Positions 10,099 through 28,652 of a stretch of DNA of 49,765 nucleotides are shown piece by piece. Location of the stretch: NCBI GenBank assembly GCA_004143605.1, contig AWVY01000012.1, positions 70,278 to 120,042 on the forward strand, read 5' to 3'. Made by a program: the position numbers and the translations under genes. Each line of letters begins with the position of its first letter. The stretch's first letter is position 1. The notes under the pieces are model-generated. The model saw only the letters and a program-made list of their open reading frames with translations. It did no database searches and was not told the origin of the DNA. This DNA is from Desulforamulus aquiferis. GTDB taxonomy: Bacteria > Bacillota > Desulfotomaculia > Desulfotomaculales > Desulfotomaculaceae.

Positions 10099-10106
10099 AA
10101 CTGTTA

Positions 10107-10133
10107 TTAAGGTTGGCTGAAAAATGCCGACAA
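10107..10133 (+). promoter_or_regulatory. SigD (sigma-28) type promoter before flgM
   Basis: TTAA at 10107-10110 and GCCGACAA at 10126-10133 are separated by 15 bases, close to the flagellar sigma consensus TAAA-N15-GCCGATAT. It lies about 35 bases upstream of flgM. Confidence 0.65.
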
Positions 10134-10168
10134 TATATATAACAGTGAGAAAAACGAAGGTGAGATAA

Positions 10169-10465
10169 ATGAAAATAAATGGTTATACCCCCCTTAACAA
10201 TGTGTTAAAGGCCTACAACCAAAATAAAACAGACAAAACTATGGTTAAAGATAAAAAATCCGTAACCCAGGAAGACTCTGTGCAGCTTTCCGGAGAGGCC
10301 AAGTTTAAGAAGGAGATTGAGTCCACCCTTCGTGAGCTGCCCGAGGTTCGGGAAGAGCTTGTCAGCAAGATTAAAAGGGATATTAACTCAGGCGCTTATA
10401 AAATAGATAGTGACAAAATTGCAGCCGAGATCATTAAAGAGAGGCTCCTAGACGAGAAGATTTAA
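10169..10465 (+). CDS. flgM: Anti-sigma-28 factor FlgM
   Basis: Intact, 98 residues. The layout is typical: a polar, flexible N-terminal half (DSVQLSGEAK is a family hallmark), then a C-terminal helical part (VSKIKRDINSGAYKIDSDKIAAEII) that binds the sigma factor. It holds SigD inactive until the hook-basal body is built and FlgM is exported or released. AAGGTGAG precedes the ATG. It is followed after 5 bases by flgN, and a SigD-like promoter lies upstream, giving the usual feedback on late flagellar genes. Confidence 0.92.
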   Translation: MKINGYTPLNNVLKAYNQNKTDKTMVKDKKSVTQEDSVQLSGEAKFKKEIESTLRELPEVREELVSKIKRDINSGAYKIDSDKIAAEIIKERLLDEKI

Positions 10466-10470
10466 AAAGG

Positions 10471-10977
10471 ATGGTGCAAATGGAGTCTTTACTTTTGAGT
10501 TTGTATGAGATTTTAAAATTGCAAAATGAAAAGGTCATTGAGTTAAAGGAAGTTGCTCAAGAACATAATCTGGCAATGCAAAAGAATGATATTGAAACCA
10601 TCCTGACAGTTGTAAAAAGGCAAGAATCTTTGATTTTGCTATTGGCTCAGCAGGATAAGAAGCGTGAAGCTGTTCAGGAGCAGTTAGCTAAGCATTTAGG
10701 TGGTGTAGAGGGAAACCCAACCCTAAGTCAGCTGTTGGAAAAGTCTCCGGAGTCAAAAGCAAAGTCTGAACTAATACGAATGGCTGAAAAATCTAAAGAA
10801 AACCTAAAGGCCTTGAATGAACTTAACCAGTTAAATAATGTTCTGGCCCGGCGTGGCCTGATATTTTCACAGCAACTGAGAAATCTTATTCAGCCAAGGG
10901 ATGGTAATACCTATCAGGGCACAGGAGAGATCAAAACTCAAGATAAAGTAATTTCGGTAATTAATAGGACTATATAG
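10471..10977 (+). CDS. flgN: FlgN-family export chaperone
   Basis: Intact, 168 residues, almost wholly helical and rich in charged residues, with the FlgN-type heptad pattern LLSLYEILKLQNEKVIELKE at the start. FlgN keeps the hook-junction proteins FlgK and FlgL unfolded for export. Its position between flgM and flgK supports the call. ATG 10471 has AAAAAGG upstream; ATG 10480 is a weaker alternative. Confidence 0.85.
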   Translation: MVQMESLLLSLYEILKLQNEKVIELKEVAQEHNLAMQKNDIETILTVVKRQESLILLLAQQDKKREAVQEQLAKHLGGVEGNPTLSQLLEKSPESKAKSELIRMAEKSKENLKALNELNQLNNVLARRGLIFSQQLRNLIQPRDGNTYQGTGEIKTQDKVISVINRTI

Positions 10978-10995
10978 TAGCAAGGTGGTATAGAT

Positions 10996-12425
10996 ATGGC
11001 GGGAGGAACTTGGTTAGGCTTAGAAACAGCACGACGGGGGATTATGGTACACCGACAGGCGTTGGATATTACAGGTCACAACCTGGCCAATGCCAGTACC
11101 CTGGATATTCTAGACAAGAAGCAGTCATAAGGCTACTGATCCTTATACAGTTCCCGGGATAAACAGCTCCTGCACCCCGGGACAGTTTGGTACCGGTTCC
11201 ATGGTGGATTACATTCGCCGGATCAAGGATGAGTATTTGGATAACAACGTCCGTATGGCCACTGCAGACAGCGGCTACTGGGAGGATCAGATATCCATCT
11301 TCCAGCAGGCTGAAGCATGCTTTGCAGAACCTGCTACCAACGGCATCAGCAAGCAAATTGTAGAGCTTTTCAAGGGCTGGATGGATTTGAATAACTACCC
11401 CACTGACCTGGGGGTAAAGGCCACTGTGTGGAAACGGCTAGTAATCTAGCGGTTATGCTTAGCTCCGTATATAAGCAGCTTGACACTATTGAAACTGGTG
11501 TGCTGGACGTAGATGCGGGAGTAGTTAAAGGTGGCATGATGAAGGACCAGGTTGACCAAATTAACAGTATCATTACCCAAATTAATGATCTCACAAATTC
11601 CATTAAAAAAATATACGTAGTGGGCCAACAACCAAATGATTTATTAGACAAGCGTGATGCGTTACTTGAACAATTAAGTCATTATGGACCTGTTCAGGTA
11701 ACTGATGGATTTAATAACGGTAAACCTAATGGTGAACTAACTTTAGCATTCTACGGAACAGAAGTGCTAAATTCCAGCAGCGGTGTATGCTTGAATGATT
11801 TAGAGCTTGAAGTAAATGCTGGCGGAGAAATTATAGTGAATTCCACCAGCAGCGGAGAAATAGTTAATCTGAGTGAAAAACTAGATAACCAGGAATTCAG
11901 TGGTTCGTTGGTTGGCCTAGTCAACGCAAGACAGAAGCTAATTGACGAACAGGATAAATTAAATACACTGGCAGAGGCCATTAGAGATGAAATGAACACT
12001 ATTTTATCAGCCTCAGGTACTGGTTATGAAACATTCTTATATACTGGGAATCTTGAAAATGGTGATTTTAAGGTAAATCCTGATTTGTTTAAAAACCTGA
12101 TAAACTTGACGGAGCCATAGCGCATGCGGCAGCGGAAATTAGAGACAAAGACATAGCTTCATTAGGTAACAGTACCTTTAGCGAATATTATGGCTTTATT
12201 GTCACCGATGTAGGTAATGCAGCTAAAAATGCCAACTCAATGGCGGCCAACCAAAAAGCTATCAAAACTCAAATTACTGCATTGCGTGATTCGGTTTCAG
12301 GTGTCTCCACCGATGAAGAATTAACTAAAATGATGCAGTTCCAGTATGGCTGGCAGGCATCGGCCCGCATGATCACGGTTGTTGATGAAATGTTAGACGT
12401 AATCATCAATAGAATGGGGGTGTAA
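10996..12425 (+). CDS. flgK: Flagellar hook-junction protein FlgK (four frameshifts)
   Basis: About 477 residues after repair. The N-terminus (LGLETARRGIMVHRQALDIT, then GHNLANAST) is the D0/D1 flagellar rod-hook motif. The C-terminal FQYGWQASARMITVVDEMLDVIINRMG is the matching D0 helix. Single bases are missing near 11100 (a C of CCCC), 11143 (a G), 11423 and 12108. Each piece is in the frame expected after one base loss. FlgK joins hook to filament. It is the fourth gene of the flgM-N-K-L group, 18 bases after flgN. Confidence 0.9.
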
Positions 12426-12428
12426 GAA

Positions 12429-13460
12429 GTGCGTATTACTAACCAGTATTTGGCCAACTCAATGATAAAACATCTACAAGGTAATTTATCACGCTTAGCC
12501 ACCAGTCAGGAGCAGATAGCCACCACAAAACGTGTTAACCGTCCCAGTGATGATCCTAATATCTTAAGCCCCCTCCTGGCAATTAAAGGAAATTTAATAT
12601 ATAACGAGCAATATGATCGTAACTTGAATGATGGTTTGGCTTATCTAGATGTATGCGATTCGGCTCTGGGTACCATTGGAAGTGTTCTGACAAAGGCATA
12701 TGAGTATGCATCACAAACCGCAAACGACTCTTATAACCCGGATGATCGCAAATCCGTTGCTTCGCAAATTGATAAGCTGATTGACCAGATTGTAGAGCTG
12801 GGCAACTCTGCGGTGGGCTCGAAATATGTTTTTGCCGGCACGGATAATGGACATCCCCCTTTTAAGAGGGTAAAGGATGACTCGGGAGTGGAGTATATTG
12901 TTTTCATGGGTAATACAGATCAAGTAATGCGTGAAGTAGCAGCCCATACATCTTATCCTATAAGTGCAAATGCGGTTGGGTTTGGTGCCACGGCATCTGA
13001 AGGCATATTTGGTTGGGCTAATGATCCTACCCCAAAAACAATTACTATCAACGGTGTAAGTTCAGATTTCCAGGTAATCTATATGGACGACCCGTCGGTG
13101 AGCGATGATTTTTCGGGAGTTCTTAAAGAATTATTTACATTTAGGAACTCCTTAAATGACGGTGCCGATCCCGCTGCTCAGCAACAAAAAATTGAAGAAA
13201 GTATTGGTGGTTTACAAAAGGTTAGTGACAGGATACTGCAACATCGCGTTGCAGTAGGGGCACGCTTTAATCAGTTTGAAGACATGAAAAAACAAATATT
13301 AAACCAAAACTTAAATTTGGAAAGTACTATGTCTACACTTGAGGATGCTGATTTATCTAAGCTATCTATACTTTCATCCCAGCAATTACTAACCTACCAG
13401 GCATCATTGGCAATCGGCTCAAATGTACTCAGCACATCTTTACTTGATTTCCTTAGATAA
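12429..13460 (+). CDS. flgL: Flagellar hook-junction protein FlgL
   Basis: Intact, 343 residues, starting at GTG four bases after the flgK stop. MRITNQYLANSMIKHLQGN and KRVNRPSDDPN are FlgL/flagellin-type D0/D1 segments. LSILSSQQLLTYQASLAIGSNVL is the C-terminal helix. Together with FlgK it connects the hook to the filament. Confidence 0.92.
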   Translation: MRITNQYLANSMIKHLQGNLSRLATSQEQIATTKRVNRPSDDPNILSPLLAIKGNLIYNEQYDRNLNDGLAYLDVCDSALGTIGSVLTKAYEYASQTANDSYNPDDRKSVASQIDKLIDQIVELGNSAVGSKYVFAGTDNGHPPFKRVKDDSGVEYIVFMGNTDQVMREVAAHTSYPISANAVGFGATASEGIFGWANDPTPKTITINGVSSDFQVIYMDDPSVSDDFSGVLKELFTFRNSLNDGADPAAQQQKIEESIGGLQKVSDRILQHRVAVGARFNQFEDMKKQILNQNLNLESTMSTLEDADLSKLSILSSQQLLTYQASLAIGSNVLSTSLLDFLR

Positions 13461-13499
13461 GCTGACTCCCTATAAATTTAATGTAGGAAGTGAGTGACT

Positions 13500-13853
13500 A
13501 TGAAAATAGGTGCAGGTGGTTTGCAGCCCTATGTTATGCATGATGTTTTGAAAAATGTTGACCAGTCTATGAAGCCTAAGGCAGGGGTTCAAGAAACTCT
13601 AGTTCAAGCCCAAGGCCGTGACTTAAACATGCTAAAGGAAGAGTTAAACAGAGCCATAGAGTATCTCAATAAACTTGCAAATGCTATGAATTATCCTGTT
13701 TTCGTATCCCTTAAAGAACCACCTCCTAGGCTTAAGTTAGTTCTTAAGAATAAAAGGAATGGCTCAGAAAAAGAGATAAGCATAGAAGAATTTAATCTTT
13801 TGGCTGCACAATTAGAAGGATTCAAAGGGTCCAATATAGATAGTTTTGCCTAA
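13500..13853 (+). CDS. Small flagellar-locus protein, possibly FlaG-like
   Basis: Intact, about 117 residues. A central helix (LKEELNRAIEYLNKLANAMN) is followed by a short beta-rich part (VFVSLKEPPPRLKLVLKNKR) and a final helix. This is the layout of FlaG proteins, but the 'IPPEE' signature is not present, so the assignment is tentative. Position between flgL and flagellin supports a filament-related role. AGGAAGTGAG precedes the ATG at 13500. Confidence 0.5.
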   Translation: MKIGAGGLQPYVMHDVLKNVDQSMKPKAGVQETLVQAQGRDLNMLKEELNRAIEYLNKLANAMNYPVFVSLKEPPPRLKLVLKNKRNGSEKEISIEEFNLLAAQLEGFKGSNIDSFA

Positions 13854-13890
13854 GGTAATAAATGGCAATAAAAATTATTAAGATAAAGTA

Positions 13891-13919
13891 TAAAGTAGGT
13901 TGAATTCTTATCCGATAAA
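13891..13919 (+). promoter_or_regulatory. SigD-type promoter P1 of flagellin
   Basis: TAAAGT at 13891-13896 and TCCGATAA at 13911-13918. With TAAA as the -35 the spacer is 16 bases. The -10 differs from GCCGATAA by one base. Confidence 0.6.
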
Positions 13920-13936
13920 AGTATTGAGTAAGCAGA

Positions 13937-13964
13937 TAATTAACAATTCACTGGCGGCCGACAA
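13937..13964 (+). promoter_or_regulatory. SigD-type promoter P2 of flagellin
   Basis: GCCGACAA at 13957-13964 is identical to the -10 found before flgM. TAAT at 13937-13940 lies 16 bases upstream. The flagellin start is about 100 bases downstream, leaving a long leader with a strong AAGGAGG site. Confidence 0.55.
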
Positions 13965-14067
13965 TGAAGATGTTAATTATCACTAAATATATCCAGGGTG
14001 GGCTGGATTAAAAAAACCACTAAATAGGCAAGGATGCCAATTGTAAAATCAAGGAGGAAAAACAAAC

Positions 14068-14915
14068 ATGATTATCAACCACAATATGATGGCGATGAAC
14101 GCCCACCGTTCCCTTACTATCAACACAGGTGCAACCTCTAAATCCATTGAAAAACTATCTTCCGGTCTGCGCATCAACCGTGCTGGTGACGATGCTGCCG
14201 GTCTGTCCATCTCCGAAAAAATGCGCGGCCAAATCCGTGGTCTGCAACAGGCTTCCAGAAACGCTCAAGACGGTATTTCCCTCCTGCAGACCGCTGAAGG
14301 TTCAATGAACGAAACCCATGCTATTCTGCAGCGTATGAGAGAACTGGCTGTTCAGTCTGCCAACGACACCAACGTAACTATTGATAGAGATGCTCTGCAG
14401 GAAGAATTTAATGCACTTAAGAACGAAATTGACAGAATTGCTAACACCACAGAGTTTAACACTCAAAAACTAATTAGTCTGATGCTGGCACTTTAGTGTT
14501 CCATGTTGGTGCAAACCAAGACCAAATTATCAGTGTTACTTTTGCAGATATGAGAGCAACTGAAACTACTGTGAATTTAGGCTACATTGATTCTGCAGTA
14601 ACTATTGATATGAGTGTTGCTATTTCTAATCGTTCCAATGCTAATGCAATGATTACTTCGATTGACAACTCTATTACCGCTGTTTCTACCCAAAGATCCA
14701 AATTAGGTGCTATTCAGAACCGTCTGGAGCACACCATTAAGAACCTGGATGTTGCCGCTGAGAACCTGCAGGCTTCCGAATCTCGTATTCGTGACGTAGA
14801 TATGGCTAAGGAAATGATGGAGTTCACTAAGACCAACATCCTGAACCAAGCTGCTCAGGCTATGCTGGCCCAGGCCAACCAACTGCCTCAAGGCGTACTT
14901 CAATTATTAAGATAG
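14068..14915 (+). CDS. hag: Flagellin (frameshifted)
   Basis: About 282 residues after repair, a short flagellin consisting of D0/D1 with little or no D2/D3. The N-terminus [20 protein letters not shown] and the [20 protein letters not shown] motif, and the C-terminal [20 protein letters not shown] with the final [10 protein letters not shown], are unmistakable. One base is missing near 14475-14480. The conserved ends use CTG- and GCC-rich codons, unlike the AT-rich genes that follow, as expected for a highly expressed gene. AAGGAGG sits before the ATG, two SigD-like promoters lie upstream and a strong terminator follows. It is the likely target of the adjacent glycosylation genes. Confidence 0.95.
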
Positions 14916-14940
14916 TTAAACTAACTAAAAAATATTTTAG

Positions 14941-14967
14941 AGCCAGCAAACATTTTGCTGGCTTTTT
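14941..14967 (+). terminator. Intrinsic terminator of flagellin
   Basis: AGCCAGCAAA (14941-14950) pairs perfectly with TTTGCTGGCT (14954-14963) around a three-base loop, followed by a short T-run. Confidence 0.85.
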
Positions 14968-15030
14968 AAAACCAATCAGAAAATTTATTTGGTTTTAAAA
15001 AGCTAGTATAATGATATAAGGAGAATGATG

Positions 15031-15291
15031 ATGGGGAGAATTAACGTTGTTGTAGAAACAATAAGAGAGGGAAATATTAACAATGCATATGAAATGGTTA
15101 ATCTTTTAATCGATGATATTTCAAAATTATTAGATAATGAGCAAGCCCGAGGGGAGCAAATAGAGGAAGCCTTTCTTAACAAACTTAACGCATTAATAAA
15201 TGAAATTAAATTGTCTATGTTTCATCATGATGTTGTATATCTAGTAGATCTATTAAAATATGAATTGCCCCAATATATAATAATTGAGTAA
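15031..15291 (+). CDS. Small helical protein between flagellin and MAF glycosyltransferase
   Basis: Intact, 86 residues from the ATG at 15031, which lies 7 bases after AAGGAG; ATGs at 15025 and 15028 are too close to that site. The protein is acidic and wholly helical (TIREGNINNAYEMVNLLIDD; VVYLVDLLKYELPQYI). I do not recognise a named family. Only 22 bases separate it from the MAF gene, so it is probably a partner or chaperone in filament modification. That role is inferred from context only. Confidence 0.6.
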   Translation: MGRINVVVETIREGNINNAYEMVNLLIDDISKLLDNEQARGEQIEEAFLNKLNALINEIKLSMFHHDVVYLVDLLKYELPQYIIIE

Positions 15292-15313
15292 AAGACGGTA
15301 AGGAGTTTAAAGG

Positions 15314-17235
15314 ATGAAAATAATAGACAAAAATATACAGGCTCTAAAAGAAAAGAAATATGATTTCGTAGAGGATTTACTTGCAATAAAAGATGTGGAT
15401 AATAATGAAAACATTAGGGTACTTCAATCACCTATGGGACACTATGTAATGTATAAAAAAAATCCTGAAGGTCATTATCTACAAATAAATAGTATGTATG
15501 ATCCATCCGAGGAAGCGAATTATACTGTACGTAAATTGCCCAAAGATATGGTCAGGCGGATTGTCATAGTAATCGGAGTTGGTATGGGATATCACTTACG
15601 GGAAGTGGTTAAGAGGATTAATGAGAAATCAGTTGTCATTATCATAGAAAATAATATTGATATGTTGTATCATCTTCTTCATCACGAAGATCTTACAGAA
15701 GAAATTAATTCTAAAAACGTATCTTTTATAGTTGGTAATAAAGAGAAAATTAGTATAGAAGTTTGCAGGGTAGTATCTTCATTTACCTTTAATTTAAACG
15801 ATATATTAATAATAACTTTACCTATTATGGATTTAGAATATCTTAAGTTTTGCAGATTGATATCACAAAGTATAGAACTTCAGAAAACTAATAAAATATT
15901 TATGATGGGTAACGATACTGAAGATAGCTTAATCGGCATAAGGAACAATTTTTTAAATTGTGGTGAACTTTTAAAAAGTCCTGGAATTGATGAATTATTA
16001 TCTATTGCAGGGGACATATACAAAAACAAACCGGCTGTTATTGTGGCTTCCGGCCCTTCATTAAATAAGAACATTCATCTCTTGAAAGAAATTCAAGATA
16101 AAGCATTAATCATTGCCTGTGATGGTTCTCTCTCATTGTTACAGGAAAATGGTATAGAACCCCATGTAGTTTCCAGCGTTGAAAGAATATTTAAAACCTA
16201 TCAAGCATTTTATGAAAATAAAAAGATTCCTCCTAATACAGTACTTATGACTATTCCTGTAATTAGAAAAGAGATATTCCAGTGTTTTAAAGATAACAGG
16301 AAGATTGTCAGCATTAGAAAAGGGGAAGGAATAAATGAATGGATGTCAAAAGTTGTTCCGCAAAAAGGAAAAATAAATGCTGGAACATCTGTGGCCCATT
16401 TATGTTTTTCCTTTGCTCAAGCTGTCGGCGCTGATCCTATTATTTTAGTAGGTCAGGACCTAGCCTATTCGTCGGGTGGATACTCACATGCAGAAGGCGT
16501 TGAAATTCGAGAACGTATTATAAATAATAAGAATACAGTATATGTTAAAGATTATGATGGTAATAATATACCTTCTACATATGTATGGCGTAATTTCCTA
16601 GCCAGTTTGAGTTGTATATTGACAAATGCGATGCACTTTGTATTGATGCTACCGAAGGTGGGGCTTATATAAATGGGACAAAAATCATGAAGCTGCAGGA
16701 TGTTATTGAGCAGTATTGTAGCAATGACGAGAATATAATCCCGGTATATAAACTGGTTGAATCATACAACACTACTTCGGCAGAAGTAGAGAACGGCTAT
16801 GTTAACTATATTAAATTAATAGACAAAGAGATTAGTAAATTTAAAAAACTAATTAAAACTGCTAAAAAAGCACAGATTATGGCTAAGAAGGCTACTAAAA
16901 ATTTTAATAAGGATGTTTATACGGAAGAACAGCTTGATAAATTATATGACAGCATTGAATTTGTTGAAAATATGGTTAAAGATATTACCCGTGACTATGT
17001 GTTTATGCATGCTTATCAATATACATTAAGAATAGTTGCCATTAAAGTAAGTCTTTTAGGAAAAGGCATTGAGGAACTAAGTATAGATGTTTTACTTAAC
17101 AATATAAAGTTACAACAGGAACTTATTAAAGAGATAATTAACATAGGTGAACAGTTTATTGATACGTTTAATGAGGCTAGAAAAATAGTGGAGAAATCTT
17201 TAGATGATCATAGGAAAGTTTATACTCCGTATTAA
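15314..17235 (+). CDS. Motility accessory factor (MAF/DUF115) glycosyltransferase (frameshifted)
   Basis: About 640 residues after restoring one G near 16610. The central DUF115/MptE-like domain shows VIVIGVGMGYHLREV, AVIVASGPSLNKNI, ACDGSLSLLQENGI and ILVGQDLAYSSGGYSHAEG. The C-terminal 200 residues are helical. Characterised MAF proteins transfer nonulosonic acids such as pseudaminic acid onto flagellin serines or threonines in the cytoplasm. Its place between flagellin and the pse genes makes that role likely here. The gene is clearly AT-rich. Confidence 0.85.
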
Positions 17236-17282
17236 GAAGTTTGGAAAAATTCACTACCTACCAAATGCTTAATATCTATTTA

Positions 17283-17308
17283 GTCAAACACAGATCAAAT
17301 GATATAAT
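17283..17308 (+). promoter_or_regulatory. Possible extended -10 promoter for the pse operon
   Basis: TATAAT at 17303-17308 is preceded by TG plus one base. A poor -35 (AGTCAA-like) lies near 17283-17288. It would transcribe pseB and following genes. Confidence 0.4.
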
Positions 17309-17353
17309 ATCTAAGAGTAAAATATAAATATATATTAAAATATTATTGAAAAG

Positions 17354-17378
17354 TAAATAAGACAACAATGGCCGAATT
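17354..17378 (+). promoter_or_regulatory. Weak SigD-like promoter candidate
   Basis: TAAA at 17354-17357 and GCCGAATT at 17371-17378, with a short spacer of 13 bases. It would place the glycosylation genes under flagellar sigma control, but the spacing is poor. Confidence 0.25.
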
Positions 17379-17382
17379 CTAG

Positions 17383-19602
<2,220 letters not shown>

Positions 19603-19606
<4 letters not shown>

Positions 19607-20333
19607 AAACAGTTATTATTGTACAAGCCAGAATGACATCAACCAGGCTCCCAGGAAAAGTGCTGAAGACTGTCCTAGGGAAAGCACTTTTAGAGTATCA
19701 AATAGAAAGACTAAAAATGGTACAACTTGCTGAACAGATAATTATTGCCACAACAATAAACAGCACTGATCAACCAATAATTGATCTCTGTCAACGCCTC
19801 TCTGTTCCATATTATCGTGGTTCAGAAGATGATGTATTAGCAAGGTATTATGAAGCGGCAACTTTGTATGGGGCTGATGCTATTGTTCGTGTAACTTCAG
19901 ATTGTCCTCTCATTGACCCTACAGTAATTGATGAAGTTATTGATTATTATATTAGTAATGAATGTGATTATGTTTCTAACACTATGGATAGAACCTACCC
20001 CAGGGGGATGGATACTGAGGTCTTCTCTTATAAAGTATTAAAAGAAGCCTTTAAAAATGCAGTTGAGTTACCAGAAAGAGAACATGTAACACCATTTATC
20101 TATCATCGTCCAGAAAAATACAGTTTGGAAAGTGTAAAATGATGAGCGATAAAAGTCATTACAGGTGGACAGTTGACACAATAGAGGATTTTAAGCTAAT
20201 TAAAAAAATATTATCTAATCTTTACCCTATAAACCCGCAATTCAGTATGCAGGATTGTCTGAAATTATTACAAAAATATCCCGAATGGGAAAGAATAAAT
20301 AAACACATCGAACAAAAGGCGTATGGAAAATGA
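19603..20333 (+). CDS. spsF: SpsF-like cytidylyltransferase family protein (frameshifted)
   Basis: About 243 residues after restoring one A in the A-run near 20139. [19 protein letters not shown] is the nucleotide-binding N-terminus of the SpsF/CMP-sugar synthetase family. TSDCPLIDP and [10 protein letters not shown] follow, and [12 protein letters not shown] is the SpsF C-terminal motif. In this pathway it would activate the nonulosonic acid with CTP in place of PseF. SpsF proteins were first named for spore-coat polysaccharide genes, so its exact reaction here is inferred. Its start overlaps the pseC stop and its end overlaps pseG. Confidence 0.8.
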
Positions 20334-22080
20334 AAATTTTTATTCGTACCGATTCATCGTATGAAATAGGATCTGGTCATGTAATGAGATGTCTGACCTT
20401 AGCAGAGGCCTTATGGAAAAAGGATTTGATGTTAGATTTATTTGTCGTGAATTACCGGGAAATTTAAATAATTTTATTGAGAATAAAGGATTTAAAGTAT
20501 ATAGGTTACCCTACAATAAAGAACAGGGCAGTAATGTAACGAATGTTAATAACCATTCCCATTGGCTTGGAACAACTTGGCAGAATGATGTATTTGAGAC
20601 GGTAAATATCCTATCCAATGAAAAACTAGTTGTTAACTGGTTTATTATTGACCACTATTCTTTAGATCAGAATTGGGAAAAAGAGTTGCGGCCATATGTA
20701 AAAAAAATTATGGTCATAGATGATTTAGCAGATCGTCCCCATGACTGTGACTTATTACTGGATCAAAATCTTTGTAAAAATGCAAATAAATATAGGCAAT
20801 TAGTTTCTGAGAACTGTATAACATTAATTGGCCCAAGATATGCGTTACTACGTCCGGAATTTATTACAGCCAGGCAAAACCTAAGAAATCGAGATGACAA
20901 TATAAAAAGGGTCTTGGTGTTTTTAGGTGGGAGTGATCCAACAAACGAAACTAAAAAGGTGTTGGACGCAATTATACAACTTAATCAATCAAATATTCAA
21001 TTTGACATTGTTGTCGGACAATCAAATCCACATAAATATCAGATAAGAGACCTTTGCATGCTAGAACCGAATATTACCCTTCACACCCATGTAAATAATA
21101 TGGCCGAATTAATGGTTAATGCAGATTTAGCGATAGGTGCAGGTGGAAGCACAACGTGGGAGCGGAGTTGCCTAGGACTACCTAGTATTGTTTTAAGTAT
21201 TGCACAAAACCAAGAACAGTTAACAACAAGTGTAGCGGATTATGGTGCATTAACTTATTTAGGTCGTGCTGAGGAAGTTAATACAGAAATTATTGTACGT
21301 GCTGTAAAAGAACATATTCAGGGAAGTAAATCATTGACCGAAATGTCAGAAAAGGGAAAGCAACTGGTAGATGGATTTGGTGTTGAACGTGTTGTCAACG
21401 CGATAAACATATCACCATTTAAAATAACTATTTTATCAGATGCCAAAAGCTGGATAAATTTATATATTCCATTATTAGTAATAAAATATCAAGAAAAAGG
21501 ACATTCAATAAAATGGGTACATATGCCTGAAGATATCTCAGAAGGAGATTTTGCTTTTTACCTAGGATGCAGTCAACTCGTACCTATGTCAATTCTATCA
21601 AAGAACCGACATAATTTAGTTGTACACGAGAGTGATTTACCTAATGGCAAAGGGTGGTCTCCTTTAACCTGGCAGATATTAGAGGGTAAGAATGAGATAC
21701 CCATAACACTCTTTGAAGCAGGAGAAAAAGTGGATAGCGGAGTTGTGTATTTAAAGGATGTTATGAAGTTTCAGGGTTTAGAATTAGTAGATGACTTAAG
21801 AAAAATACAAGCAGAAACAACTATTAAAATGTGCTTAGAATTTGTGGATAGATACCCAGATATAATACAGTATGGTGTTAAACAACAGGGTGAATCGACA
21901 TACTATCCAAGGCGAACACCAAAAGATAGTAGGTTAGATGTAAATAAAACAATACAAGAACAGTTTAATTTATTACGTGTAGTTGATAACGAAAATTATC
22001 CAGCCTTTTTTGATATAAACGGATATAGATATATTTTGAAAATAGAACGAAGATTAGAAATTGAGGAGAAACCCAAATGA
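20330..22080 (+). CDS. pseG: PseG UDP-sugar hydrolase fused to a formyltransferase-like domain (frameshifted)
   Basis: About 583 residues after restoring one A near 20410. Residues 1 to about 350 are Pse[16 protein letters not shown] with the catalytic histidine, [12 protein letters not shown], and [18 protein letters not shown]. PseG removes UDP from the 2,4-diamino-trideoxy-altrose intermediate. From about residue 360 a second domain resembles the Fmt/ArnA formyltransferase family: [20 protein letters not shown], then KVDSGVVY, with the histidine and aspartate of the family but valine in place of the usual asparagine. The C-terminal [13 protein letters not shown] resembles Fmt-type linkers. 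Start overlaps spsF; the stop overlaps the next gene, another formyltransferase-like protein. Confidence 0.87.
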
Positions 22081-22751
22081 AATATGTTATTGCTGCAAAT
22101 CGTATATGGTATAAAAATATGCCTGTAAAATTAGCAGCACTTACTAAACAAGAATTCATATTGATAGATAAAAAAGAAGATTTAACTTTTGAGCTATTAC
22201 AAGATATAAAACCTAGATACATATTTTTTCCGCATTGGTCATTTATTATACCCAAGGAAATATATGAAAATTATGAATCAGTTATATTTCATATGACAGA
22301 TGTTCCTTTTGGTCGCGGTGGTAGTCCCTTGCAAAACTTGATTGCCAGAGGTATTTTCGATACAAAAATTTCTGCTTTAATGTGTCAGGAAGATCTTGAT
22401 GCTGGACCGGTTTACTTAAAAAGACCATTTTCTTTGTTTGGTTCAGCCGAGGAGATATATATAAGAGCTGCTAAAGAGATTGAAGAAATGATAGTTTATA
22501 TAATAGAAAATGAACCAAACCCAGTTAAACAACAAGGGGAAGTGGTATACTTTAACAGACGTAAGCAAGAAGACGGGAATATTGCTAACTTAACAGATCT
22601 GGAACAGGTTTTTAACTATATAAGAATGTTAGATGCTAAAGACTACCCTAGGGCTTTTTTAGAAAATGGGAATTTTAGGTTTGAATTTCAAAGAGCCTCC
22701 CTTAAAAATGACTATGTTATTGCAGATGTTAAAATCACAAAAAGAAGGTAA
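22077..22751 (+). CDS. Formyltransferase-like protein
   Basis: Intact, 224 residues, overlapping pseG by four bases. The core VIFHMTDVPFGRGGSPLQNL aligns with the HASLLPxxRGxxP segment of methionyl-tRNA/UDP-sugar formyltransferases. DLDAGPVYLK matches the LDTGD-type segment with its aspartate. The asparagine two residues before the histidine in classical enzymes is isoleucine here. YFNRRKQEDGNI resembles the 'YxRR' region. It probably formylates (or otherwise binds folate to modify) an amino group of the sugar intermediate. The donor and acceptor cannot be told from sequence. Confidence 0.75.
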   Translation: MKYVIAANRIWYKNMPVKLAALTKQEFILIDKKEDLTFELLQDIKPRYIFFPHWSFIIPKEIYENYESVIFHMTDVPFGRGGSPLQNLIARGIFDTKISALMCQEDLDAGPVYLKRPFSLFGSAEEIYIRAAKEIEEMIVYIIENEPNPVKQQGEVVYFNRRKQEDGNIANLTDLEQVFNYIRMLDAKDYPRAFLENGNFRFEFQRASLKNDYVIADVKITKRR

Positions 22752-22754
22752 AAT

Positions 22755-23447
22755 ATGACTAATAAAATCTTAGTTATTGCAGCACATCCAGATGATGAGG
22801 TTCTGGGTTGTGGTGGAACTATTGCCAGGCATTCAAGTATGGGCGATGAAGTTCATGTGGTTATTCTAGCGGAAGGCATAACTAGTAGAGGAGAAAAAAG
22901 ATTTCGAGAAAAATTTACGAGTCAGTTATCAGAATTAGCCCAAGCGGCACATAATGCAAATAAAATTCTTGGAGTTTCTTCTTTAACACTTAGCAATTTT
23001 CCAGATAACCGTATGGATTCCCTTGAACGCCTAGATATTATAAAGGAAGTTGAAACGCATATAGATAAGCATAAACCTCAGATTGTTTATACTCATCACT
23101 TTGGAGATGTTAATATTGATCACAGGCGAATCCATGAAGCAGTTGTAACAGCTTGCAGGCCTGCTCCAAATTGTCCTGTTCACACTATCTTGTTTTTTGA
23201 GGTTCCTTCAAGTACAGAATGGCAACTTCCGGGTTCTGGGCCGAAATTTGAGCCAAACTGGTTTAGGAACATAACAGACACTATGCAATTAAAACTAGAA
23301 GCATTAAAAGAATATCAATGTGAAATGAGACCCTGGCCACATGCACGTTCCATCGAAGCTGTGGAATATCTTGCGCGTTGGCGTGGAGCAAGTGTTGGAG
23401 TTAAAGCTGCTGAAGCTTTTGTTTTGGGAAGAAATATATTTATCTAA
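22755..23447 (+). CDS. PIG-L/LmbE family N-deacetylase
   Basis: Intact, 230 residues. AAHPDDEVLGCGGTIARH holds the zinc-binding HPDDE motif, and HHFGDVNIDHRRIHEAV holds the second histidine cluster. Family members deacetylate N-acetyl sugars. In this operon it would expose an amino group on a nonulosonic acid precursor or product, which could then be formylated. It starts 3 bases after the formyltransferase-like gene and is followed by pseI. Confidence 0.88.
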   Translation: MTNKILVIAAHPDDEVLGCGGTIARHSSMGDEVHVVILAEGITSRGEKRFREKFTSQLSELAQAAHNANKILGVSSLTLSNFPDNRMDSLERLDIIKEVETHIDKHKPQIVYTHHFGDVNIDHRRIHEAVVTACRPAPNCPVHTILFFEVPSSTEWQLPGSGPKFEPNWFRNITDTMQLKLEALKEYQCEMRPWPHARSIEAVEYLARWRGASVGVKAAEAFVLGRNIFI

Positions 23448-23462
23448 AGGGGTTCTTAATGG

Positions 23463-24514
23463 ATGAATACAATATCAATTGCAGGAAGGAAAATTGGCTC
23501 TGAGCACCCACCTTTTATCATAGCAGAAATGTCAGGCAATCATAATCAATCATTGGAGCGTGCTTTAGAAATTGTTGAAGCAGCCGCTAAGGCTGGTGCT
23601 CATGCCATAAAACTTCAGACTTATACTGCTGATACAATGACGTTGGACATAGATGGAAGGGATTTTTATATTGATGACCCTGACAGTTTATGGCACGGAA
23701 ATTCACTATATAAATTATACCAACAGGCTTATACACCATGGGAATGGCATAAACCTATTTTTGACAGATGCAGAGAACGTGGAATGATTTGTTTTAGCAC
23801 ACCATTTGACGAAACAGCTGTGGACTTTTTAGAATCACTGGATGTTCCTTGCTATAAAATAGCTTCCTTTGAAAATGCCGACATGCCTCTAATTCGTAAA
23901 GTTGCATCAACCGGCAAGCCAATGATTATGTCTACCGGTCTAGCTACCGTTGCTGAATTGGATGATTCAATCCGTGTCGCAAGGGAGGCAGGTTGTACAG
24001 ATTTGATTTTACTAAAGTGCACAAGCACATATCCTGCAACACCTGACAATAGCAATATTTCTACTATCCCGCATATGGGGGAACTTTTCAGTGCCAGATT
24101 GGTCTTTCAGATCATACATTAGGTATTGGAGTCGCTGTTGCTAGTATTGCTCTGGGTTCAACAGTGATAGAAAAGCATTTTACCTTGTCTCGAAAAGATG
24201 GGGGAGTGGATGCTGCATTTTCTATGGAGCCAGATGAATTTAGTTTGCTTGTTTCTGAGAGTACGCAAGCGTGGCAAGCACTTGGAAGAGTTACATACGG
24301 ACCGACAGAAAAAGAAAAATTATCACTAAAGTTTCGCCGCTCTTTATATGTAGCAAAGGATATGAAGGCAGGAGAAGTTTTTACAAAAGATAACATTAGA
24401 GTGGTGAGACCTGGATTCGGCTTACCACCTAAGTTCTACGATTATTTGTTAGGTAAAAAGGTTAGGAAGAATGTTAAAATGGGTACTCCATTAAGTTGGG
24501 AATTATTAGAGTAA
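23463..24514 (+). CDS. pseI: Pseudaminic acid synthase PseI (frameshifted)
   Basis: About 350 residues after restoring one T near 24087. FIIAEMSGNHNQSLERALEI and TPFDETAVDFLESLDVPCYK are characteristic of PseI rather than NeuB or LegI. The N-terminal TIM barrel has KLQTYTADTMTLD and STGLATVAEL; the C-terminal antifreeze-like SAF domain begins near FRRSLYVAKDMKAGE. It condenses the 6-deoxy-diamino-altrose with phosphoenolpyruvate. The ATG at 23463 follows AAAGGGG at about 11 bases. Confidence 0.92.
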
Positions 24515-24522
24515 TCACGAGT

Positions 24523-24645
24523 ACTAAAAACCTGCCTCTAGGTAGAATGGCTTATAGAGATGGAATGGTTGGGGCACTGATTTATTTAGACTTAGACTCC
24601 TCAAGCTATGTTACAGGCAGAATATTATTGATGATGGTGGGTTAA
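24523..24645 (+). pseudogene. C-terminal remnant of an SDR oxidoreductase
   Basis: This 41-codon open stretch without a start reads LPLGRMAYRDGMVGALIYL and then SSSYVTG, the C-terminal signature of short-chain dehydrogenases (PLGRxAxPxEMVGAxxYLxSxxSSYVTGQxxxxDGG). After SYVTG the frame slips by one base, and the 'QNIIIDDGG' continuation is seen in the next frame. Everything upstream of it is missing, because pseI ends only 8 bases earlier. It is therefore a real gene relic rather than a reading error. SDR genes occur in other flagellin glycosylation islands. Confidence 0.7.
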
Positions 24646-25710
24646 ATGTTTGATAAAAAAATTAGTCTATGTATGATAGTAAAAAATGAAGAAATAAGTT
24701 TGCCAAAATGTTTAGATAGCGTTCGGAGCTATGTAGATGAAATTGTGATTGTTGATACCGGATCAAATGATAGGACTATTGAGGCAGCTAAAGAATTTAC
24801 CTCACTGGTGTATCATTTTCCCTGGGGTAATGATTTTTCAGCAGCCAGAAATAATTCCATTTCTAAAGCCGCTAATGATTGGATACTCGTTTTGGATGCT
24901 GATGAGATAGTTACAGATTATAATCAAGATTCGATAAACCGGTTTATAACAAATGATACCTATTGTATTGGTAGATTAAAGCGGATAAATCCCTTCGAAG
25001 ATAATTTTGGGGTTAAAAAATATATTGAGAGAGTTAATAGACTTTTTAATAGAAACAATTTTTGTTATCAAGGAATAATTCATGAACAAATTGTAGCAAA
25101 AAAAGATTTTCCTTATAAAACAAAGAACGTTGAAATTGTACTGGATCATATTGGTTATACCAAAGAAGTTGTTCAAAAAACCAATAAACTCTCAAGGAAT
25201 ATTTCTTTACTTAACGCTGCAATAATAAATGATGTTGCAGATCCATATCTTCATTACCAATTAGGCAAATCTTATTATATGGCCAAGGAATATAATCTGG
25301 CTGCTGATTCCTTTGAAAGAGCAGTAAATCTCAAAATTAACTTAAAATATGAATATATCCAGGACTTACTAGAGACTTACGGTTATTCATTGATTAATTC
25401 AGGTAAATATGAGCAGGCGTTATTCCTGGAATTATATAGTTCGATTTATAAAAAGTCCCCTGATTATAATTTCTTAATGGGTCTAATATATATGAATAAT
25501 GCCATGTTCCAGCAAGCCACAGATAGCTTTAAAATGTGTATCGGAAGCGTAGAGGGTAAAATTCAGGGTATTAATTCCTATTTGCCTAACTACAATATTG
25601 GTGTAATTTACGAATGCCTTGGGTATATGGCAGAAGCTAAAAAATATTATAAGAAATGCGGAGCTTATACGCCAGCTTTACAAAGGTTGCTAAATATTAA
25701 AATTAATTAA
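24646..25710 (+). CDS. GT2 glycosyltransferase with C-terminal TPR-like repeats
   Basis: Intact, 354 residues. ISLCMIVKNEEISLPKCLDS and DEIVIVDTGSNDRT are the GT-A nucleotide-sugar fold, and VLDADE is the metal-binding DxD. The second half (HYQLGKSYYMAKEYNLAADS; NFLMGLIYMNNAMFQQATDS) consists of TPR repeats. Proteins of this type extend glycans on flagellin or cell-surface polymers. It probably adds further sugars in the flagellar glycan, based on context. The start codon follows the SDR remnant stop directly. Confidence 0.85.
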   Translation: MFDKKISLCMIVKNEEISLPKCLDSVRSYVDEIVIVDTGSNDRTIEAAKEFTSLVYHFPWGNDFSAARNNSISKAANDWILVLDADEIVTDYNQDSINRFITNDTYCIGRLKRINPFEDNFGVKKYIERVNRLFNRNNFCYQGIIHEQIVAKKDFPYKTKNVEIVLDHIGYTKEVVQKTNKLSRNISLLNAAIINDVADPYLHYQLGKSYYMAKEYNLAADSFERAVNLKINLKYEYIQDLLETYGYSLINSGKYEQALFLELYSSIYKKSPDYNFLMGLIYMNNAMFQQATDSFKMCIGSVEGKIQGINSYLPNYNIGVIYECLGYMAEAKKYYKKCGAYTPALQRLLNIKIN

Positions 25711-25754
25711 ATATATCTGCGATTTAGCTAATTTACATTAATAAATTTGTTTGT

Positions 25755-25790
25755 AAACCAGGGCAGTTTATGCTCCTGGGTTTATTTTTT
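25755..25790 (+). terminator. Intrinsic terminator of the glycosylation operon
   Basis: AAACCAGGGCA pairs with the TGCTCCTGGGTTT side with small bulges, followed by TTTATTTTTTAT. Confidence 0.65.
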
Positions 25791-25879
25791 ATACAGACTA
25801 ATTAATAATAGAGCTTAATATTTTCTATTATCGGTCGAAAATAACACTAAGAAAAAAGGGTTTTAAAGAGGTGGATAGG

Positions 25880-28392
25880 ATGGTTAATAGAATTACAGGT
25901 CTAACAGGTTTTGATGTTGAGGGAACTATTAAGAATTTAATGAAAGCTGAACAAACCAGGGTTGATATTCTAAAGCAAAACCTGCAGTTACTAGCCTGGA
26001 AACGGGATAGCTACCGGGGGATAACCAATGCTTTTCGTTCTTTTAAAGAACAATATTTTGACATATTAAAGCCAAGCACTAACTTTAGGTCTGCTTCAGC
26101 CTTTGCCATTTTTAATGTTACTACATCGGACTCCTCCAAAGTGGTAGTTAATGCGGGAGCCGGCGCGACGGCAGGAACCCGCACTTTGGACATTATATCC
26201 CTAGCTAAGAAAGCCAGTACAACAGGGGAGACTGGGGTAAGCAAAGGGACTGAAGCAGGATTGACTGCCACTAATCCGGTAGATATGGAGAAGATGAAGG
26301 AAGGCAAGCAGTTTACACTTAACCTTAATGGCGTTACTAAAACCATTACCCTTGACCAGGACTACAGCTCAAAAACACCAGCCGAATTGGTTAACGGTCT
26401 GCAGACGTTGGTTAATAGTGCCTTTGGTACCGGAAATATAACAATATCAGTAGATGCAGGTAATAAACTGACATTCAAACCTGCGTTAGCGAGCAGTACT
26501 TTGAAGATAGGGGATGCCACCAACACTTATTTGAGTACCTTGGTTTTAGCAACGGTCAAAGCAACTCTATTACCAGTGGCAGTATTACGGATTTTTCCGG
26601 GGGAAATTTTAAAGTTAAAATTGGTGACGATGACGCAGTAGAAATAAATGTTGAAGGTGCTGCCAACCTGGGTGATTTTCTTGCTAATATTAACGCTGCA
26701 CTAGCCGATAAAGGGTTGGGTTCTTCCCTCAAGGCTATTGCCGATCCTGAAAATGCAGATAAAATTAAGCTTATCTCCCTGGACACAACAAAAAAAGTCA
26801 GTGTATTAGCAGGGGAAAGCGACAATATGCTGGCTAAAATAGGAGTTAGCAGTGGCAAAGTGATAAATCCCCTGAGCGGGACAATTAATTATAGTGCCAG
26901 TGATATTGGAAAGGATTTTGTAATTAAAGTTAGTGACGGAAATACATCTAGCTCTTATATCATTGATTTTACTACTGACTTTGTGGCTGGTGATGATGCA
27001 GCCATAAAAGTGCTATTGAAGCCCAACTGGCTTCTCAGTCAGCACCGGCAGGTTTAACAGTAGAAGTTATAGACGGTAAAATTAGTTTTTCGTACCCTGA
27101 ACATGAGATTGTGCTGCAAAAGGGAGATGACGGGCTTCGTGATGAACTGGGGTTTACTGTAGGTACCAGTAGCTCCAAGCTTGACTTATCTGCCTCCCTT
27201 GAAGATGTATCAGCTAATCTAAGCAGCGGACTAGATCCATACAATTCGGAGGGGAATGTAGAATTTACAATAAACGGGGTCACTATCAAAGCTTCCAGTA
27301 GTGACAGCCTTTCTTCTGTCATCAATAAAATAAATTCCAGTGCGGCTGGAGTAACTATGCGATATGATTCCCTAACTGATAGGTTTGTAATTGAATCCAA
27401 AGAAACAGGGCTGGCCGCAAAGGTAGACATAAAAGATGTTGAAGGGAATTTTTTGAGTCATTAAAGCTTGATACCACAACAGTTAGGTATGGAGATGACG
27501 CTAAGGTAACCATAGACGGCACCTCTGTTTCCAGGTCTACAAACTTCTTTACTATTGACGGAGTGTCATATGAGTTAAAGGAAGAAACCGGCGGGACTCC
27601 TATTACAGTTAGCATTGCTGGGGATTCCGGCAAGCTCTTGGATAATATAAAAGGTTTTATCGACAAATACAACGAACTAATTGACAAGATCAACGGTGCA
27701 TTAACTGAAAAATCCTACCAGTACGCGACTAAGGGCCAGTCTGCGTACAAGCCTTTAACCGACGAAGAAAGGAGTTCAATGTCGGAAAAAGACATCGAAT
27801 TATGGGAGGAAAAGGCTAGAAGTGGTTTGCTGCGTTCAGACCCGCTTTTACAAAAGGCACTGAGTTCACTACGGGGAGTATTATATGAAAAAGTGGAAGG
27901 ATTAGATATTAGCCTTTATGATATAGGGATAACCACATCTGATAACTGGTTGGATGGGGGCAAATTGGTCATTGATGAGCAAAAGCTAATGAAAGCTATC
28001 CAGGATATGCCCGATAAGGTGGTTACCTTATTTACTCAACAATCCTCAATTAGTTATGACGATGGTGCTAACAGGGCCACCAGGATAAAACAAGAGGGGA
28101 TTGCCTGGCGCTTGTTTGACGTAATAGAGGACAATATCAGAGTAACTCGGGATAGCCAGGGTAATAAGGGAGCCTTGTTGCAAAAAGCTGGTATGGATGG
28201 AGACACCACCGATTTACAAAACTACATTACCAAGCAAATGGAAGATCAACAAAAAATGATTGACAAAATGCTTGAAAAGTTAATTGACAAAGAAAATCAG
28301 TATTATAAGATGTTTAGCGCCATGGAAACCGCCATCCAGCGAATGTCATCCAGTCTGCCTGGCTTGCACAGCAATTTGGTGGAGGGCAATAA
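25880..28392 (+). CDS. fliD: Flagellar filament cap protein FliD (four frameshifts)
   Basis: About 838 residues after repair. The N-terminus RITGLTGFDVEGTIKNLMKA with 'WKRDSYRGI' is the FliD_N domain. The C-terminal domain contains FIDKYNELIDKINGAL, and SLRGVLYEKVEGLDISLYDIG, where the IGI motif is typical. The last residues after repair are QSAWLAQQFGGGQ. Bases are missing near 26540-26560, 27020, 27455 and 28347. The apparent longer ORF past 28392 is a frameshift product. FliD caps the filament and folds flagellin. The protein is longer than common FliD (about 450-600 residues), owing to repeated Ig-like or GTTSG-type inserts in the middle. ATG 25880 is preferred, behind AAAGAGGTGG. Confidence 0.9.
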
Positions 28393-28397
28393 TGAAA

Positions 28398-28422
28398 GAG
28401 GTTGGGATATACTCCCAACCTC
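28398..28422 (+). terminator. Terminator hairpin after fliD
   Basis: GAGGTTGGGA pairs perfectly with TCCCAACCTC around a five-base loop, followed by AGATTTT. It lies 6 bases after the repaired fliD stop. Confidence 0.75.
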
Positions 28423-28445
28423 AGATTTTCGAGAAACTACCTTCG

Positions 28446-28652
28446 GGTTTTAATAATCCCTCACGACTCCTCTCTCCGCAGTGGACAGCGCTAATCGCTT
28501 GCTTCGGGCGAAAATGGCCGCCTTCGAGTAAACATCGTGTTTACCTCAGGCTTTAGCGGACGTCCGTGTCCGCTAACCCATTTTCGCATCCTCAGCTTCG
28601 CGAAGCGCTGTTTCCACTGCTCCGAATGTCGCTGTTCGGGATTATTAAAACC
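28446..28652 (-). repeat. Structured palindromic repeat, copy 2 (complete, 207 bp)
   Basis: Bounded by perfect 15-bp inverted terminal repeats (28446-28460 and 28638-28652). It is the reverse complement of the copy at 1-159. Internal pairing is extensive: ACAGCGC with GCGCTGT and GCAGTGG with CCACTGC form a 14-bp stem with a two-base bulge, and GCGAAAATGG pairs with CCATTTTCGC. Inside are hairpins 28554-28561/28568-28575 and a TAAACA/TGTTTA hairpin. No gene and no clear target-site duplication are seen. Confidence 0.9.

Follow-up and report, generated by a model that had tools for sequence, protein, structure and literature searches.

Introduction

In Campylobacter and Helicobacter, CMP-pseudaminic acid (CMP-Pse) is made by PseB, PseC, PseH, PseG, PseI and PseF. 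N-formyl groups on nonulosonic acids, and formyltransferase genes beside nonulosonic acid genes, are on record elsewhere, in sources that we cite from parts of their text. The polysaccharide of Pseudoalteromonas distincta KMM 638 is recorded as containing Pse5Ac7Fo. 5-N-formyl-legionaminic acid is described for Halorubrum sp. PV6, in which HrrPV6_1050, located between LegG and LegI, is predicted to encode a formyltransferase (PMC6137143). The flagellin glycosylation islands of Geobacillus contain Pse genes without a recognised PseH, and those of Type III add a formyltransferase gene, fmt2 (PMC5109656). Here we describe a pseudaminic acid (Pse) locus in a stretch of 49,765 nucleotides from Desulforamulus aquiferis (assembly GCA_004143605.1, contig AWVY01000012.1, positions 70,278 to 120,042; hereafter the window). 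In this locus, PseG continues into a formyltransferase-fold domain (FT1) and is followed by the genes for a second formyltransferase-like protein (FT2) and a PIG-L deacetylase.

The host genome is a draft of 3.57 Mb in 69 contigs, with a completeness of 72% and a contamination of 3.9%; the window lies on its contig C12. We lean towards the reading that the locus makes a CMP-pseudaminic acid in which both amino groups are N-formylated (Pse5Fo7Fo) and which the Maf protein would transfer to flagellin. An earlier note on the window had interpreted it as a formylation and deacetylation locus. That interpretation is supported in part by our analysis, which strengthens it for the locus itself and weakens it through a PseH gene on another contig, C41, and through non-classical catalytic triads. 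In the literature searched, in which subscription journals are thinly covered, no enzymes like FT1, FT2 or PIG-L are assigned to pseudaminic acid formylation, and 5,7-di-N-formyl pseudaminic acid is unreported.

Gene content of the locus and proposed pathway

The gene order in the window is flagellin and Maf (12429-17235), the Pse genes, a GT2 glycosyltransferase and FliD (25871-28453). The features that concern us here are the following.

15314-17235, plus strand: Maf-type flagellin glycosyltransferase, split between two frames (15314-16672 and 16612-17235)
17449-18450, plus strand: PseB, inverting UDP-GlcNAc 4,6-dehydratase (TIGR03589, 566 bits, cut-off 408)
18438-19606, plus strand: PseC aminotransferase (TIGR03588, two pieces)
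19603-20333, plus strand: PseF-like cytidylyltransferase (PF02348, CTP_transf_3, 112 bits)
20330-21417, plus strand: PseG portion of the fusion, UDP-sugar hydrolase (TIGR03590, 276 bits, cut-off 154)
21418-22080, plus strand: FT1, formyltransferase-fold domain on the C-terminus of PseG (PF00551, PDB matches, alignment A2)
22077-22751, plus strand: FT2, second formyltransferase-like protein (PF21553, 85.6 bits; PDB entry 1zgh, E 1e-68; alignment A1)
22755-23447, plus strand: PIG-L (LmbE-like) deacetylase (PF02585, 104 bits, cut-off 28; alignment A3)
23463-24514, plus strand: PseI pseudaminic acid synthase (TIGR03586, two pieces)

The presence of PseB, PseC, PseG and PseI, claimed in the earlier note, was borne out, each being matched by its own family model. 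PseB and PseG exceeded their NCBIfam cut-offs, and the larger pieces of PseC and PseI fell slightly under theirs: the PseC pieces (18438-19229 and 19289-19606) scored 401 and 110 bits with TIGR03588 (cut-off 423.5), and the PseI pieces (23463-24122 and 24164-24514) 316 and 144 bits with TIGR03586 (cut-off 340). The PseF-like gene encodes a CTP_transf_3 protein that lies under its NCBIfam cut-off (27.7 vs 205.7 bits). The note's observation that the locus lacks PseH also held, since a PseH profile built for this analysis gave 0 matches of at least 25 bits in the window. In loci L036, L050, L051, L052, L061 and L062, PseF open reading frames (ORFs) of 682-686 aa place the cytidylyltransferase domain within a much longer protein.

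Both FT1 and FT2 belong by sequence to the formyltransferase fold. FT1 matched Formyl_trans_N (PF00551) with 28.2 bits, just above the cut-off of 26.1, over residues 387-460 of the PseG ORF, and a comparison with the PDB returned ArnA and Fmt chains, VioF chains also, with 1zgh as the top match (E 4e-11). The 1zgh protein, deposited as a methionyl-tRNA formyltransferase, is the solved protein close to FT2. For PIG-L, the PDB match was the diacetylchitobiose deacetylase 8bgn (E 4e-13). In an alignment of eight PIG-L sequences (A3), the HxDDE and DH motifs were present and H11, D13, D14 and H123 were invariant (8/8 rows), as in a deacetylase; we take the Zn site to lie among these conserved His and Asp residues.

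The identities and order of the genes, the position of FT1 in the place of PseH and the pairing of FT2 with PIG-L are read from the sequence. They suggest the following pathway. PseB and PseC would yield UDP-4-amino-4,6-dideoxy-L-AltNAc. FT1, covalently joined to the enzyme that acts after it, would formylate N4 instead of PseH, and PseG would then release UDP. PIG-L would strip the N2-acetyl group inherited from GlcNAc, and FT2 would formylate the freed N2 (the future C5). PseI would condense the sugar with pyruvate, the PseF-like enzyme would add CMP, and the neighbouring Maf would transfer the sugar to flagellin. The formyl donor, the target nitrogen of each enzyme, the placing of deacetylation before or after UDP removal, the product, the identity of the sugar and the transfer by Maf are what we infer in this scheme.

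FT1 in the place of PseH

We retrieved 80 PseG loci with the PseG-FT1 sequence as query and scored them with profiles built for this analysis, labelling FT1 at 100 bits or more and counting PseH at 25 or at 55 bits or more. The loci share ancestry (two are from Psychrobacter immobilis, two from one Thermosyntropha metagenome-assembled genome), and for this reason, and because the fusion itself served as query, the Fisher values given here are descriptive. The gene directly after PseG was PseH in 47 loci and FT1 in 12, and in 10 loci PseG itself ran on into a PseH-like GNAT; the rest were PseI (1), unlabelled (9) and another formyltransferase (1). The last, in L012, had been labelled FT1 at 32 bits, is really a different formyltransferase and was removed from the FT1 count, which thereby fell from 13 to 12. 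PseH of at least 25 bits was found in 3 of 13 loci with FT1 and in 58 of 67 without it (Fisher p 1.1e-5); at 55 bits or more, the counts were 0/13 and 50/67.

Genome surveys that depend less on this query drew on two sets, 398 genomes from the phylum of the window (taken as Bacillota) and 398 of Pseudomonadota, 796 in all; the FT1 profile was applied to the Pseudomonadota set at E 1e-30 and the FT2 profile to both sets at E 1e-20. These profiles include the window and L051 (genome G446, Polynucleobacter sp. AM-26B4); 5 of the 6 genomes found with FT1 and 11 of the 13 found with FT2 were new to them. FT1 occurred in 6/398 Pseudomonadota genomes, in all six directly 3' of PseG, and the PseH profile gave no match of at least 25 bits in the compared stretches of these six. 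Among 60 relatives of the window, FT1 matched twice, once in the window itself and once in G436, where the match is weak (58.5 bits) and of another type. Thirty plasmid records matched FT1, many of them through ArnA.

The most direct comparison is with a congener. Two of nine genomes of the genus have PseG, the host genome and G203, in which the order flagellin, Maf, PseB, PseC, PseF, PseG, PseH, FT2, PIG-L, PseI, FliD matches that of the window. Identity to the window is 86% and 65% for the N- and C-terminal parts of flagellin, 28% for Maf, 87% for PseB, 77% and 66% for the PseC pieces, 75% and 67% for the PseF pieces, 58% for PseG, 59% for FT2, 78% for PIG-L, 77% and 65% for the PseI pieces and 58% for a piece of FliD. 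Where the window has PseG-FT1, G203 has a separate PseG and then PseH (TIGR03585, 134 bits). In the one-contig genome of G203, the FT2 gene (L125 10105-10793) is itself split into two frames that overlap.

By these comparisons, FT1 stands where PseH usually sits, and it would formylate N4 of the UDP-sugar (the future C7) in its place. A third type of formyltransferase, with an N-x-H motif, follows PseG in L006 and L012. In the Thermosyntropha locus L006 (2291-2800 of the scanned piece), where the slot was unlabelled by our profiles, it occupies the place of PseH; in L012 (1693-2319) it adjoins a PseH-like gene.

The first piece of Maf (15314-16672) matches PF01973 with 132 bits and Maf_flag10_N with 29 bits; for the second (16612-17235), a Pfam search gave no match, and its likeness to the Maf region of the congener is weak (33% over 78 aa). 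Between PseI and FliD lies a GT2 glycosyltransferase with TPR repeats (24646-25710), SunS-like, under cut-off, with no counterpart in the compared stretch of G203.

FT2 and PIG-L form a recurring pair

FT2 was found in 13 of the 796 surveyed genomes, 5/398 of the window's phylum and 8/398 of Pseudomonadota. In all 13, PIG-L lay no more than 1.1 kb from FT2 on the same strand, adjacent in ten (frames touching or no more than 4 bases apart) and about 1 kb away in three, and a PseI-family synthase was present. This last association makes it unlikely that FT2 is a housekeeping methionyl-tRNA formyltransferase. The N4 acyltransferase of the 13 loci was FT1 in four and a PseH-like protein in eight (25-214 bits); none was seen in L126, on a contig of 5,970 bases. 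A restriction of FT2 and PIG-L to loci with FT1 is thereby ruled out. In the 80-locus set, five loci contained FT2, all with PIG-L, which occurred in two of the other 75 (p 9e-7). Three plasmid records matched FT2. One of them, from Synechococcus sp. NIES-970, has a Pse locus with the order PseB, PseC, PseF, PseG, PseH-like gene (61 bits), FT2, PIG-L, PseI and hypothetical genes interspersed.

FT2 and PIG-L are thus a separate recurring module. Where the pair stands beside a PseH-like gene, N4 would already be acylated, so that the simplest target of the pair, PIG-L acting before FT2, would be the N2-acetyl group that comes from UDP-GlcNAc and ends at C5. The earlier note had suggested that the deacetylase and the second formyltransferase could act at the other amino group, and the comparison points the same way.

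In a tree of 37 rows, FT1 and FT2 were split by a 100/100 branch. The 19 FT1 rows exclude the weaker types of L131 (FT1 92 bits) and L122 (58 bits). Window FT1 falls in a clade of six rows (97/94), four of which come from loci with FT2 and PIG-L (window, L051, L161, L163). The nearby row of L062 is from a locus with both; the locus of L072 has PIG-L alone, and that of L079, on a 3.4-kb contig, has neither. In the other FT1 clade, FT2 or PIG-L accompanied 0/12 rows, three of them on contigs of 3-8 kb. The full set of FT1, FT2 and PIG-L recurs in the window's phylum, in Pseudomonadota and in one cyanobacterium, and this recurrence favours one pathway that would place formyl on both nitrogens. 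That FT1 is a chance weak Pfam match is ruled out by the invariant motifs of its 12-row and 19-row families and by the 100/100 branch.

Possible acetylation from a second Pse locus

A number of observations weigh against a doubly formylated product, and they are taken here and in the following sections with the explanation that each bears on. The first concerns N4. The earlier note had advised a search for PseH elsewhere in the genome and had held that a homologue acetylating the sugar would speak against formylation. The first half of this came true: a PseH above the NCBIfam cut-off (TIGR03585, 116 vs 93.1 bits) is encoded on contig C41 of the host genome, which rules out that PseH is absent from the genome as a whole. 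It belongs to a second Pse-type locus (L088, G000 C41:36000-55000; 8258-15915) with a PseB relative under its cut-off (291 of 408 bits), an SDR protein, PseC, PseG, NeuB-like pieces, a cytidylyltransferase, PseH and PseI. Because this locus is in the same genome, N4 could be acetylated in trans. The claim that formylation replaces the PseH step is supported as far as FT1 occupies the place of PseH, and is weakened by the PseH on C41 and by the triads discussed below.

Nearby genes on C41 look to us like split ethanolamine-use genes, presumably. For an 8-kb piece of C41, matches were found in each of the eight congeners (best piece per congener 65-71% identical), so that C41 very likely belongs to the genus and the idea of a foreign contig is unsupported; a mixture of strains in the assembly is a possible source. 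By our assignment, the dehydratase pair of the C41 locus is akin to the Pen/Pal type of Bacillus thuringiensis and Geobacillus (PMC5109656).

TIGR03585 was above cut-off in 0/13 genomes with FT1 loci, several of them drafts. The test is strict, and the PseH-like genes of L018 and L073 (55 and 54 bits) also fall under its cut-off. Weaker GNAT matches (27-44 bits, E 1e-5) were present in 9/13 FT1 genomes and in 12/14 controls, and weak GNAT genes lie some kb from FT1 in L043 (26 bits), L062 (40) and L082 (49).

Possible formylation of one nitrogen only

The product may be Pse5Ac7Fo, with FT1 acting at N4, and FT2 and PIG-L acting on another substrate or editing or exchanging the N4 acyl group. 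We regard this as rather unlikely. Pse5Ac7Fo is a known natural sugar, recorded in the available source for P. distincta KMM 638, and the literature searched, seen in part, contains no 5-formyl pseudaminic acid; nor did it yield a solved sugar structure from an organism with these genes. Other observations weigh more generally against double formylation. Two of the eight PseH-like calls beside FT2 are weak (L173, 25 bits; L176, 39 bits), and the two PIG-L loci without FT2 (L050, L072; 2/75) break the pairing. On a plasmid of Mariluticola halotolerans (L131 6014-12540), a Pse locus with no PseH label pairs PIG-L with a lone, divergent FT1-like gene annotated as hypothetical. PIG-L proteins are moreover frequent away from Pse loci, with 250 matching plasmid records; of the two contexts inspected, one was that of Mariluticola and the other, in Priestia, lay outside any Pse locus.

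Against a single formyl group stands the finding that FT2 and PIG-L accompany a PseH-like gene without FT1 in 8/13 genomes, where undoing a fresh N4-acetyl group would be wasteful. Nonulosonates with a formyl group at C5 are also on record, 5-N-formyl-legionaminic acid being reported for Halorubrum sp. PV6 (PMC6137143).

Catalytic residues and possible transfer of another group

Formyltransferases of the GART/Fmt type have a catalytic triad of Asn-x-His plus a downstream Asp. The His and the downstream Asp were invariant in alignments of FT1 (A2, 12/12 rows) and FT2 (A1, 6/6 rows). The Asn is replaced by V, I or L in 19/19 FT1 rows and by I, V or C in the 16/16 FT2 rows read, three others, including a fragment, having escaped the pattern; the classical triad is thus missing from both families.

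FT1 and FT2 might have kept the fold and come to move a different group or to use a different donor, an explanation that we consider improbable. It would account for the loss of the Asn in every row read, and HoxX, which aligns with FT2, has Ile at the same position. It is at odds with the retained His and Asp, and the N-x-H formyltransferase in the PseH place of L006 gives independent support for formylation at that step. Formyl transfer would still be the likeliest activity of FT1 and FT2.

Frame breaks and the reality of the fusion

Compared with the congener genes, one frame change each was seen in PseC (about 19220), PseF (about 20130), PseG (about 20410) and PseI (about 24095), which could mean that the locus is decaying. 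PseB and PIG-L are intact relative to G203, and FT1, FT2 and PIG-L are each open. Flagellin, Maf and FliD are likewise split over frames (12429-28453), and the NeuB-like gene on C41 is also in two frames. Because the breaks extend to flagellin and to the C41 gene, an indel-rich assembly is likelier than decay.

The full PseG starts at 20330 in a frame that differs from that of the fused ORF (20389-22080), its N-terminal 27 residues lying in the other frame. From there on, the fusion noted earlier holds up. The ORF is open throughout, and the roughly 25 codons between the preceding Met, about 26 residues ahead of FT1, and FT1 itself contain neither a stop nor an ATG, GTG or TTG. Similarity to 76 PseG relatives ends at a median residue of 335 and at the latest at 344 (L006); similarity to FT1 begins at residues 342-346 in 11 of 18 relatives and at 359-372 in the other seven. 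The domain boundary thus lies at about residues 335-346 of a PseG-acyltransferase fusion. Of the few-base overlaps claimed for the next genes, only that of PseG-FT1 with FT2 was found (ATGA, 22077-22080); PIG-L begins 3 bases past the FT2 stop.

The fusion is unique among 19 FT1 loci, the other 18 having FT1 unfused. As PseG-GNAT fusions are common (10/80 loci), there is nothing odd about an acyltransferase joined to PseG, and the formyl version alone is rare. PseG is fused to a PseH-like GNAT in L011, L018, L028, L036, L048, L050, L053, L064, L071, L076 and L173, from several phyla. In L127, a PseH-like domain is fused to PseI. We conclude that the PseG-FT1 fusion, known from a single assembly, is probably not an indel artefact; fused or not, FT1 would still occupy the place of PseH.

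That an indel-rich assembly joined two genes, or that the reading frames are truly broken and the second Pse locus supplies the sugar, is very improbable: the frame breaks in four pathway genes, flagellin and FliD, the unfused state of FT1 in 18/19 loci and the broken FT2 of G203 would fit, but PseG and FT1 share one frame with neither stop nor start codon at the junction, FT1, FT2 and PIG-L are open, and breaks in flagellin and the C41 NeuB-like gene are what sequencing indels would cause.

Significance

We return to double formylation as the preferred reading. The chances seem evenly balanced for a broader proposal, namely that FT2 and PIG-L are a general module for deacetylation and reformylation that would turn N-acetyl into N-formyl at C5 and, together with FT1, give Pse5Fo7Fo; bacteria would then choose both N-acyl groups independently, by exchanging PseH for FT1 and by acquiring or dropping the pair. 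If this is true, the N-acyl pattern of pseudaminic acid could be read from a genome through two transferable modules. A surface sugar of this kind matters for the assembly of flagellin, for recognition and for the adsorption of phages. N-formyl nonulosonic acids have already been seen chemically, and in the literature searched no paper assigns enzymes to the formylation of pseudaminic acid, for which the window offers candidates. FT1, FT2 and PIG-L are small enzymes, suited to testing in vitro.

Comparison with known systems

The Geobacillus islands are like the window in having Pse genes but no recognised PseH and, in Type III, a formyltransferase gene (PMC5109656, cited in part). The words "fusion" and "bifunctional" do not occur in the available text of that paper, and in the parts examined its authors draw no link between fmt2 and the missing PseH (PMC5109656). 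The Halorubrum sp. PV6 locus shares with our proposal a C5 N-formyl nonulosonate and a formyltransferase gene, but is archaeal and belongs to the legionaminic series; the RT-PCR product of HrrPV6_1050, at 953 bp, is longer than FT2, and the available text on that locus makes no mention of a deacetylase, PIG-L or LmbE (PMC6137143). The Pse5Ac7Fo of P. distincta KMM 638 is 7-N-formylated, as would be expected from FT1 alone, and 5-N-acetylated, according to the part of the record available.

The ArnA N-terminal domain, VioF and 1zgh offer the nearest enzymes. FT1 and FT2 are alike in matching 1zgh and in keeping the His and the Asp; they differ from the sugar N-formyltransferases ArnA and VioF in lacking the catalytic Asn, and their predicted substrate is a pseudaminic acid precursor. 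PseG-GNAT fusions carry an acyltransferase at the same C-terminal end of PseG, where the window has a formyltransferase fold and not a GNAT. Finally, the window shares PseB, PseC, PseG, PseI and a cytidylyltransferase with the CMP-Pse pathway of Campylobacter and Helicobacter, in a locus that also holds Maf and flagellin, and it departs from that pathway in two respects: FT1, fused to PseG, replaces PseH, and FT2 and PIG-L are inserted between PseG and PseI.

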